Assembly: GCA_903863255.1 (NCBI GenBank)
Contig: CAIPBJ010000034.1
Coordinates: 1-64,000 of the forward strand
Direction: 5' to 3'
Source: an uncultured Methylophilaceae bacterium
GTDB taxonomy: Bacteria; Pseudomonadota; Gammaproteobacteria; Burkholderiales; Methylophilaceae
Length of the DNA: 64,000 bases
This document shows, in pieces, positions 54,410 through 60,504 of this stretch. The position numbers and the translations under genes are program-made. How positions within the stretch are numbered: the first letter of the stretch is position 1; every line of letters starts with the position of its first letter. Below the pieces are notes generated by a model. It was not told the origin of the DNA. It saw only the letters and a program-made list of their open reading frames with translations, and searched no databases.

Positions 54410-55372
<963 letters not shown>

Positions 55373-57109: not shown

Positions 57110-57805
57110 TCAGAATTGCATGTCGGGGATTTTCATTATCTGACCTTCCTTCCAAGGCAGGGTCGAGTGGTCTATCCTCCAAAATTCATGATCAAATAAT
57201 GTGCCAAAAGAAATTTCAAAGTCCATCCAGTTCATTAACGTTTCACGATTGGGATCGAAATCTTTGATGGCTTGTACTATTGATGAGGAGGCAGGAATGC
57301 TCGTGCTTCTTGGCCTTACTAATGCAACATGATTAGCTGCCTGAAGCAAATAGGCTGGTGTCCAATTCTGATGACGATCGAGCGCATCGATCGTATGGGT
57401 CTCAAAGCGATTCTCACTTTCATCAAGTTTTTTCCAAATAGCGAGATAAACAGAGTCGATCCCTGTTTCAAGAAGGGTGTTGTTACCATCAAACGCCATT
57501 TTTGCTTTGTAAAGGTCACCATTGCCAGTTTGATAATCCAATTCCCTTTGCCAGTTGCAAATATCGGAATACACGTAGGTTTTACCCGAAAATCCTTGCT
57601 GTGAGGCTAGCCAGTATAATTCTTCGAACGAGCAATCCTCCAAAGACTCGTGGCTTGAGAAATCAGGCCTTCCGCTCGGTATGATCAATTCAATGTGATG
57701 CCTGTGGGTTTGCAACCAAAGAACCAGAGAATGGTTGTCGTTCACGTCTTTCTTTTCCAGTAACAGCCTTTTCCATAACCCCATGTATCTTGAAGGAACA
57801 GACAT
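57110..57805 (-). CDS. Conserved protein of unknown function
   Basis: I cannot assign a function. The soluble protein of about 231 residues resembles a scattered proteobacterial family with the phrases MGLWKRLLLEKKDV, LWLQTHRHHIELIIPSGRPD (near residue 30), FSGKTYVYSDICNWQRELDY and a tryptophan-rich beta pattern suggestive of a lipocalin-like barrel. The start is uncertain: ATGs at 57805 and 57784 and a GTG at 57901 are in frame and none has a good ribosome site. It converges with fhs and lies downstream of argA. Confidence 0.6.
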   Translation of the reverse strand: MSVPSRYMGLWKRLLLEKKDVNDNHSLVLWLQTHRHHIELIIPSGRPDFSSHESLEDCSFEELYWLASQQGFSGKTYVYSDICNWQRELDYQTGNGDLYKAKMAFDGNNTLLETGIDSVYLAIWKKLDESENRFETHTIDALDRHQNWTPAYLLQAANHVALVRPRSTSIPASSSIVQAIKDFDPNRETLMNWMDFEISFGTLFDHEFWRIDHSTLPWKEGQIMKIPDMQF

Positions 57806-58033
57806 TTTATGAGTTGCTTCTATGAGATCTTTTGTATGATTCAGTACCAATGGCATTGAGAAAAATAAAAGTTGTTGGACACGTTTTAAAACTAGCAACA
57901 CTCATGCCATTGATTCAAGCCCCAATTTAATTACCATGAAGTAATCAATGTTATTGAGGAAAATAGAGAAAGAATCGCTTTAGTAACCAAATAGATGGAT
58001 GACTGTATGCACCAAATCCAAGCATTGAAAAAC

Positions 58034-59611
58034 TTATGGTGCAACTAGAATGTCCTTTACAAAGACTTTTGAACGTCTTTGAAGGTTATAAAGTTTTTTC
58101 TTTTCATGAGGGAGTGCGTTCACATCTTTTTCTACGAATCCTCTCTCTAGGAACCAGTGTTCGGTACGAGTAGTCAAGCAAAATATGGATTTGAATCCCA
58201 GACTCCTGGCCTGGTTCTCACAAAAATTAAATAGTCTGTCCCCTCTTCCCTTTCCACGGTAATTGGGATGAATTGCTAAACACGCAAATTCCGCAGTTCT
58301 CTCATGGTTGAATGGGTAGAGTGCAGCACAGCCAATTACTCTCCCATCGTGTTCCATAAGGTAGAAGTGATTGATTTCCATTTCGAGCTGTTCGCGGCCT
58401 CTTCTAACCAAATAGCCTTCTGCCTCCAGGGGTTCTATCAATTTCAGCAAGGCTCCCACATCATCAATTTCAGCCTGTCGCATGGTTTCTAAAGGTTCTT
58501 CGGTGATCATTGTTCCGATTCCTTCGTGGGTAAAAAGCTCTTGAAGTATCGAACCGTCTTTATGCCGGCATATCAGATGCGTGCGCGCCACGCCGTGTTT
58601 GCATGCTCGTATAGCCGCGGGTAAAAAATAGCTTTCGTCCTCGGTTATTCCCTTGGCACCCTTTGTTTTTGCGTGAGCAAGGAGATTTTCTGCCTTATGA
58701 GCAGTCATCTCTCGAAGTAACTCGCCGCGTACATTATGAACCCCGTCGGAATCCATCAGGAATAATAATTTGTCGGCATCCAAAGCAATCGCCGTGCTGA
58801 CTGCTACGTCTTCAAGGCTTAAATTAAAAGCCTCACCTGTGGGTGAGTATCCGAGAGGTGAGAGTAAAACCATTTCTCCATCATCAAGGCGTTTTTGAAT
58901 CCCAATGGCATCGATTTTACGAACTTCCCCTGTGTGCATCAAGTCGACACCTTCCATAACGCCTAATGGTTTGGCGGTGACAAAGTTGCCGCTTGCCACA
59001 CGTATGTCCGAACCTGCCATGGGGGAATTTATTAGCCCCATTGAGAGCAATGCTTCAATCTCAACACGAATGGCTCCATTGGCTTCCTTGACTGCTTCCA
59101 TCGCCTCGTCATCAGTCACCCTTAATCCACCAACGTATTTGGGTTCGAGTTTGATTCGCTTTAGCCTCGATTCTATTTGTGGCCTTGACCCATGCACCAA
59201 TACCAGACGAACTTCCAAGCTTGCCAAAAGATTTAGATCGTGGGACATGGCTACAAATTGACCATCGTTGACGACTTCGCCTCCAAAGGCTATCACAAAG
59301 GTCCGACCTCCAAAGGCATGGATGTAGGGGGCAACGGATCGAAACCAGCTAACAAATTCATGGGGTTTGAATTGTGAATTGACAGGCGGTGCAAGAAGAT
59401 TGGGATTGGACGATTCCGAGAGCGCATAAAGGGAAGCGGGGGTACACTCGAGGGCAGAGCAGATCTTTCTTAAAAGGTTTTCATTGATTCCCTGCGATCC
59501 CCTTTCTATTCGGGATAAGTTGCCGCTATCGGTTCCCACTTGCTTGGCTAGGGTTTGAAGCGTGACGTTAAGGTATTTTCTTCTTATTCTTATTGAATTC
59601 CCAATAGACAT
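58034..59611 (-). CDS. argA: N-acetylglutamate synthase fused to an N-terminal XRE-type DNA-binding domain
   Basis: One uninterrupted frame encodes 525 residues. Residues 1-65 form a Cro/C1-type helix-turn-helix (LQTLAKQVGTDSGNLSRIER). Residues from about 85 to 370 are the amino-acid-kinase-like domain of ArgA (HAFGGRTFVIAFGGEVV, LVLVHGSRPQIESRL). Residues from about 380 to 520 are a GNAT acetyltransferase with the acetyl-CoA loop YRGKGRGDRLF. ArgA acetylates glutamate as the first step of arginine synthesis and is normally about 440 residues with no DNA-binding domain. No methionine codon lies in the linker, so the fusion appears genuine. Two palindromic sites overlap the promoter, suggesting autoregulation, perhaps responsive to arginine. 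Confidence 0.88.
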   Translation of the reverse strand: MSIGNSIRIRRKYLNVTLQTLAKQVGTDSGNLSRIERGSQGINENLLRKICSALECTPASLYALSESSNPNLLAPPVNSQFKPHEFVSWFRSVAPYIHAFGGRTFVIAFGGEVVNDGQFVAMSHDLNLLASLEVRLVLVHGSRPQIESRLKRIKLEPKYVGGLRVTDDEAMEAVKEANGAIRVEIEALLSMGLINSPMAGSDIRVASGNFVTAKPLGVMEGVDLMHTGEVRKIDAIGIQKRLDDGEMVLLSPLGYSPTGEAFNLSLEDVAVSTAIALDADKLLFLMDSDGVHNVRGELLREMTAHKAENLLAHAKTKGAKGITEDESYFLPAAIRACKHGVARTHLICRHKDGSILQELFTHEGIGTMITEEPLETMRQAEIDDVGALLKLIEPLEAEGYLVRRGREQLEMEINHFYLMEHDGRVIGCAALYPFNHERTAEFACLAIHPNYRGKGRGDRLFNFCENQARSLGFKSIFCLTTRTEHWFLERGFVEKDVNALPHEKKKLYNLQRRSKVFVKDILVAP

Positions 59612-59631
59612 GATTCACCATAATTTGCTAA

Positions 59632-59676
59632 ATTTGCAAATATTATACATAAAAATGCGTTATTTGCAAATATTAT
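59632..59676 (-). promoter_or_regulatory. argA promoter framed by two identical palindromic operators
   Basis: ATTTGCAAATATTAT occurs exactly twice, at 59632-59646 and 59662-59676, 30 bp apart; its core ATTTGCAAAT is a perfect palindrome. On the minus strand TTGCAA (59664-59669) and TATAAT (59642-59647), 16 bases apart, form a near-consensus promoter. One palindrome covers the -35 and the other the expected transcription start. Confidence 0.75.
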
Positions 59677-59694: not shown

Positions 59695-60444
59695 TTAATT
59701 GCAAAAATCGCCCCAAAGTGTCTGCATAGCCGCTATGGCTGCAAGTGGGGCTGTTTCCGTCCTTAGAACCCGATTGCCCAATCGCACTGGAACAAAGCCT
59801 CTGATGTTGGCGATGCTTATCTCGTCTTCGGTTAGTCCTCCTTCTGCCCCAATTAGCAGGCATATCTCACCATTAGGTGGCGGTAAGCTATGCAGGGTGT
59901 CGGCAGCATTAGGTGACAAGGTGATGCAGGTACTGAAGGCAGAAGGCTTGCTTAGCCAGTTGGCCAGAGACAATGGGCTTTCTATCGTTGGAACGGTGGC
60001 TCTTCCAGATTGCTCACAAGCCGAAATAATGACATTCTGCCAATGTTCAACCCTTCGTTCAGCTCGTTCTCCCGATAGTTTAACCATGCTTCTTTGACTT
60101 GAAATGGGTTGTATGTGAGAGACCCCCATTTCTACAGCTTTCTGAATTGTAAAGTCCATTCTGTCGCCACTGGATATGGCTTGTGCCAATGTGATTTTTA
60201 AAGGGGATTCGTTATTGACAGCTTGTACTGCTTTTACTTTCGCTTGGGCCTCGTCTTTTTTGATGAAGGTCAGTTCAGCAAGGTAATCTTGTCCATCACC
60301 ATTGAACAACACCAGTTCATCACCAATTTTTAGTCTTAGAACCCTTGTGGCATGAATCGCGGCATTTTCAGAAAGCCTGACAGTTGCACCAAGTGCAAGT
60401 TTGTCTGATGTTTTAGGGGTGCAGTAAAAACGTGGATTTTTCAT
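59695..60444 (-). CDS. rsmE: 16S rRNA m3U1498 methyltransferase RsmE
   Basis: The 249-residue SPOUT methyltransferase has an N-terminal PUA-like domain (NPRFYCTPKT, ATRVLRLKIGDELVLFNGDG) and a knotted SAM-binding domain with AISSGDRMDFTIQKAVEMGV, LLIGAEGGLTEDEI and LGNRVLRTETAPLAAIAAMQ. It modifies U1498 of 16S rRNA. The start is set at 60444, although no clear ribosome site precedes it. Its stop is 83 bases upstream of argA, and the argA promoter fills that gap. Confidence 0.94.
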   Translation of the reverse strand: MKNPRFYCTPKTSDKLALGATVRLSENAAIHATRVLRLKIGDELVLFNGDGQDYLAELTFIKKDEAQAKVKAVQAVNNESPLKITLAQAISSGDRMDFTIQKAVEMGVSHIQPISSQRSMVKLSGERAERRVEHWQNVIISACEQSGRATVPTIESPLSLANWLSKPSAFSTCITLSPNAADTLHSLPPPNGEICLLIGAEGGLTEDEISIANIRGFVPVRLGNRVLRTETAPLAAIAAMQTLWGDFCN

Positions 60445-60504
60445 GATTGTTAAAGCCAAAGTGTTAAAATTACGGGGTTAATTCTAATTGAAGGCGAGAT
60501 AAAA

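Follow-up and report, generated by a model that had tools for sequence, protein, structure and literature searches.

Enzymes that also regulate transcription by binding DNA are known as trigger enzymes; those with a DNA-binding domain include PutA, NadR and BirA of E. coli (PMC8249747), and PutA acts as a single-target regulator at the promoter region of its own gene. A kinase-like domain with a DNA-binding head is also found in the betaproteobacterial BzdR of Azoarcus, whose XRE-type head is followed by a shikimate-kinase-like domain (PMC6678401, PMC3602430); in BzdR, the enzyme activity is lost, benzoyl-CoA is sensed, and several TGCA-palindrome operators per promoter (TGCA-N6-TGCA and related) extend from the -35 past the start point. 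The classical N-acetylglutamate synthase (NAGS), such as that of N. gonorrhoeae (2R8V; PMC4490483), is composed of an AAK and a GNAT domain with an arginine loop. In the gonococcal hexamer, the N-terminal helices of neighbouring subunits interlace, and arginine shifts the N-terminal helix and changes the shape of the assembly (PMC4490483).

The argA product described here (HTH-NAGS), for which we propose repression of its own promoter, resembles each of these systems in part. Like the trigger enzymes, it combines a metabolic enzyme with a DNA-binding domain, and the proposed regulation resembles PutA in its single target, the own promoter region. It differs from PutA, NadR and BirA in being another enzyme, biosynthetic and end-product-inhibited, and known here from sequence alone, and its XRE domain contrasts with PutA's own fold type. 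While the operators at argA are arranged as those of BzdR, the motif reads TGY-N7-RCA, and HTH-NAGS is a full NAGS (AA_kinase plus GNAT) lying outside the BzdR subfamily with its shikimate-kinase-like C-terminal domain. The AAK and GNAT domains, the arginine loop and the equivalog match are shared with classical NAGS, to which HTH-NAGS adds an N-terminal XRE helix-turn-helix (HTH) and a linker. By sequence, the closest solved relatives of this HTH are the P22 C2 repressor and ClgR, i.e. stand-alone phage and protease regulators with other operators. With ArgR, HTH-NAGS would share the presumed role of coupling the arginine level to argA transcription, but the proteins are unrelated, and ArgR governs a many-gene regulon whereas the present sites are found at argA only. 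The 2015 review of the NAGS family (PMC4490483) contains no mention of helix-turn-helix or DNA-binding. No description of an HTH-fused or self-regulating NAGS was found in the open-access literature, and on this open-access search we regard HTH-NAGS as provisionally new.

The argA locus and its product

Methylophilaceae are methanol-consuming bacteria, and NAGS is the first enzyme of arginine synthesis. The window, i.e. the whole stretch of 64,000 nucleotides analysed here, harbours the following features around argA:

58034..59611, minus strand: argA, N-acetylglutamate synthase (NAGS) with N-terminal XRE HTH, 525 aa (profile matches)
58511..58540, minus strand: arginine-binding loop ELFTHEGIGT, residues 358-367 (motif from PMC4490483)
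59414..59611, minus strand: XRE HTH domain, about residues 1-66 (Pfam)
59623..59641, minus strand: O2, ATTTGCAAATTTAGCAAAT on the argA strand, over the predicted start point (conserved position and pattern)
59626-59638, minus strand: O2 core, TGCAAATTTAGCA
59642..59647, minus strand: predicted -10 TATAAT, just upstream of O2 (promoter scan)
59653..59671, minus strand: O1, ATTTGCAAATAACGCATTT on the argA strand, overlapping the predicted -35 (conserved position and pattern)
59656-59668, minus strand: O1 core, TGCAAATAACGCA
59664..59669, minus strand: predicted -35 TTGCAA, within O1 (promoter scan)
59695-60459, minus strand: rsmE-like gene, upstream of argA and co-directional

The protein encoded downstream of the sites (P0001) is a full-length NAGS: residues 81-521 match NF003641 with 682.7 bits (cut-off 344; E 2e-205), and the equivalog cut-off of TIGR01890 is also exceeded. 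By these NAGS equivalog models, the argA product is predicted to be a complete catalytic enzyme. AA_kinase, Acetyltransf_1, HTH_3, HTH_31 and HTH_26 all score above their Pfam cut-offs; the order of AAK followed by GNAT, together with the NAGS-specific match, is that of a classical bacterial NAGS, and the Pfam XRE HTH lies in the same chain as the enzyme, as in trigger enzymes. An initial sequence-only reading of this DNA had already placed an HTH in the protein encoded directly downstream of the sites, and an XRE HTH was indeed found at its N-terminus (residues 1-62 by the Pfam matches), just before the NAGS N-terminal helix. Its recognition helix comprises residues 29-37 (SGNLSRIER), and D28, G30, N31, L32, S33, R34, E36, R37 and G38 do not vary among 21 homologues. 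In the AlphaFold model, the HTH shows the five helices of the XRE / Cro-CI fold (pLDDT about 80-90); the full-length model, with a mean pLDDT of 46, is usable only over the HTH and a portion of the GNAT domain and too poor for placing the HTH on the hexamer. The own genome yielded no close HTH paralogue, the second-best match having an E of 0.04 and 28% identity. The arginine-binding motif E-(L/I)-(F/M)-(T/S)-X-X-G-X-G-T is present in all 60 Methylophilaceae homologues.

Within the window, argB (54491-55213, minus strand) lies on the same strand about 3 kb downstream of argA, and a 263-aa open frame (57110-57901, minus strand) is located between a formate-tetrahydrofolate ligase-like gene and argA. 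In several relatives argB follows within about 150 bp of argA, and there the operators may control an argAB operon.

The spacer between argA and the rsmE-like gene measures 83 bp with 28% G+C. It contains two exact copies of the 15-mer ATTTGCAAATATTAT, at 59632-59646 and 59662-59676, with the start-to-start distance of 30 bp that had been reported for them; a direct repeat of this length was reached in none of 2000 dinucleotide shuffles, the maximum being 13. By promoter scan, TATAAT is separated from the -35 (TTGCAA or TTTGCA) by 16-17 bp on the argA strand. In 34 of 46 relatives, the O2 core is preceded at 2-4 bp by a -10-like hexamer, a count in which position alone is informative, as the AT-rich reverse strand used as control yields nearly as many; the mere presence of the hexamer was therefore dropped as evidence.

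The operator unit

What is conserved among the aligned argA upstream regions of 60 Methylophilaceae genomes is an interrupted palindrome of 19 bp, WWWTG(C/T)-N7-(A/G)CAWWW. Typically, two copies are present 28-32 bp apart, one on the -35 and the other on the start point; the spacing is 30 bp in 20 genomes and 28-32 bp in most of the remainder. In the window, O1 and O2 are 30 bp apart from centre to centre, i.e. about three helical turns.

This definition revises the operator as first read. The two sites had been taken to be identical, but their cores differ (TGCAAATAACGCA vs TGCAAATTTAGCA). The proposed 10-bp palindrome ATTTGCAAAT consists of the left half of each site (ATTTGC) and the AAAT of the spacer, and is common to O1 and O2 because the one runs into the other in both. 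It was rejected as the operator, since it is present 17 times in the 2.43-Mb genome and recurs exactly in only 1 other of the 60 argA upstream regions; of its 15 further copies, 13 lie within open frames, and none of the 15 includes an operator core. Regarding the partial copies said to flank the pair, TTTGCTAA at about 59624 is real, although it is the right half of O2 instead of a separate copy, while AATTGCAAAA near 59697 does not qualify as an operator.

Conservation across the Methylophilaceae

A perfect pair, i.e. 12 of 12 specified positions of TGY-N7-RCA at a distance of 28-32 bp, is present in 29 of the 60 argA upstream regions, compared with 0/60 in complemented sequence and 0/60 in argA coding sequence. 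A symmetrised 19-bp scoring matrix was derived from these same argA sites; with it, about 54 of the 60 upstream regions had a pair score >12, a count that includes two small-genome lineages for which separate spacings, 41-42 bp in L061-L064 and 50-51 bp in L057-L060, were picked after looking at the data. In a second, named collection, 27 of 27 Methylophilaceae loci scored 23-43, several of these being the same genomes as in the first set. Five genomes have a single good site only (L021, L029, L031, L048 and L053). In L030, a pair 29 bp apart is present and was missed by the scoring because the start codon is placed too far downstream. Thus, the pair is conserved upstream of orthologous fusions, in agreement with the earlier suggestion of paired operators about three helical turns apart at the argA promoter. 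Where the upstream gene is not rsmE, the pair is still found at argA in 19 of 20 genomes; therefore, it is tied to argA rather than to the surrounding genes.

Spacing and copy number vary in some lineages. The spacings in L061-L064 and L057-L060, all with 1.3-Mb genomes, correspond to about four and five helical turns, respectively. L061 and L062, which belong to the most diverged lineage, have kept both sites as well as an HTH above the cut-off. In L006, L009 and L011 (genus code g20; also L008), a third operator is located at about -91 to -93 from argA, about 30-32 bp further upstream, so that three sites follow each other at even intervals.

The fusion itself occurs in nearly all of 59 genomes of the same family; the relatives known by name comprise Methylotenera, Methylophilus, Novimethylophilus and Methylophilaceae MAGs. 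Outside this family but within the order, the match starts at residues 65-85, past the HTH, and among 369 genomes across the class residues 1-114 were covered in the own genome only. As judged from these matches, the fusion is restricted to Methylophilaceae among the genomes compared. Two near-complete genomes from other families of the order (G098 and G099) had no detectable NAGS match. ArgR was above the cut-off in none of 100 relatives, compared with 8 of 14 control genomes, which places argA outside an ArgR regulon and is in line with the reported conservation of ArgR in gammaproteobacteria and its absence in other classes (PMC5343134).

Specificity of the pair to argA

Among 119 upstream regions of argB, argC, argF and argG (about 30 genomes per gene), none had a pair scoring above 15, and the mean pair scores for these genes were -16 to -22 vs 27 for argA; a wider arginine regulon was rejected on these four genes. 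The HTH-less argA genes of eight other families likewise lack the pair, with seven scoring <0 and the best 8.5. In the 60 whole genomes, a strict AT-flanked pair pattern was found at 19 places, 16 of which are argA promoters, and the reversed pattern at none; for a looser pair search the reversed control is a poor baseline, TGC and GCA being common in coding DNA. The sequence-only reading would have been contradicted by a motif common throughout the genome, and this applies to the 10-mer with its 17 copies but not to the corrected operator pair. In the own 2.43-Mb genome, there are only four AT-flanked TGC single operators, two of them being O1 and O2.

The strict pairs outside argA are located at G018:C1:2542141, G035:C8:37948 and G005:C1:2075204, of which the first two look mutually homologous. 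The other two single operators of the own genome, at C44:33656 (within a frame) and C111:17114 (close to the metX-metW junction), look like incidental matches, and the same is probably true for an operator-like site pair (L213; C111:17087-17132) near the junction of metX-like and metW-like genes.

Protein-DNA covariation

Most genomes have C as the third base of the half-site, and some have T. This C-to-T change at +/-4 of the operator is accompanied by a change in HTH residue 40, with Q where operators are mostly C and L or I where they are mostly T (eta squared 0.79, n=46; 0.62 for residue 29, S/A). In a tree built from the catalytic part, operator base and residue 40 each change twice, on the same branches. 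As these are two independent events only (sign test p 0.5), the covariation was dropped as statistical proof; it is suggestive and fits what direct recognition by the HTH would predict. The HTH of the downstream protein, to which the sequence-only reading had pointed, is the most likely binder of the pair.

Proposed mechanism and alternatives

We consider it probable that O1 and O2 are operators of the argA product, and that HTH-NAGS represses its own promoter with arginine as the likely co-repressor. Each 19-bp palindrome would be bound by the XRE domains of two subunits of an HTH-NAGS oligomer. Since the HTH is attached just before the N-terminal helix that interlaces between neighbouring gonococcal subunits, two HTHs are expected to lie side by side; a hexamer could thus present three HTH pairs, which would suit promoters with two operators as well as the three found in one genus. 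With O1 on the -35 and O2 over the start point, joint occupancy of the two would exclude RNA polymerase and result in self-repression of argA, HTH-NAGS thereby acting as a trigger enzyme. From this site geometry we infer negative autoregulation instead of activation, and we likewise infer binding of the HTH to O1 and O2, repression on binding and modulation by arginine. Arginine is the likely co-repressor because the NAGS part retains the arginine site, whose occupancy in the gonococcal enzyme moves the helix adjacent to the HTH. In this lineage, which lacks ArgR, a single arginine signal would then act twice, inhibiting the enzyme and switching off its gene. We give an even chance to the more specific version, in which one binding event both inhibits the enzyme and lets one hexamer span O1 and O2, or three sites in some species.

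The main alternative shares the operator claim and differs in the signal alone: HTH-NAGS would bind O1 and O2 in response to the amount of enzyme, or to its occupancy by acetyl-CoA or glutamate, and not to arginine. Autoregulation of a single target in cis suffices for concentration control, and the lack of sites at the other arg genes is odd for an arginine sensor; with the arginine-binding motif retained in 60/60 homologues, however, and arginine moving the N-terminal helix of gonococcal NAGS beside the point of HTH attachment (PMC4490483), we regard this as possible but the less probable signal. Activation of argA, e.g. by O1 alone recruiting the polymerase, is very unlikely, for although O1 overlaps or abuts the -35, a position used by some activators, in almost every genome O2 lies over the predicted start point, as a repressor site would, and a recognisable -10 lies between the two sites.

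Since stand-alone XRE proteins are widespread and an operator does not reveal which protein binds it, a separate XRE regulator might occupy the pair while the HTH of NAGS is vestigial or otherwise employed. Against this stand the occurrence of the pair essentially at argA only and within the family that has the fusion, the persistence of pair and HTH together in streamlined 1.3-Mb genomes, the nearly invariant recognition helix and the lack of a close HTH paralogue in the own genome, and we hold this reading to be very unlikely indeed. Palindromes arising by chance from AT-rich promoter DNA might be suspected from the low G+C content of the spacer and the abundance of the 10-mer. The probability of such an origin is negligible, as it is refuted by the controls (perfect pairs in 29/60 vs 0/60), the specificity to argA, the whole-genome pattern search and the comparison with other families, while half of the four AT-flanked operators in the genome are O1 and O2 themselves.

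Implications

If autorepression by HTH-NAGS is true, the protein would be a new member of the small set of metabolic enzymes that control their own genes by binding DNA directly, and would offer an explanation of how arginine synthesis is controlled without ArgR in a widespread methylotroph family. The family also offers a natural series of variants, i.e. TGC with Q40 and TGT with L40 as well as spacings of about 30, 42 and 51 bp, by which recognition and phasing are testable. An arginine-gated HTH-NAGS, if true, would represent a self-contained arginine feedback unit replacing ArgR across the Methylophilaceae, including the streamlined lineages.
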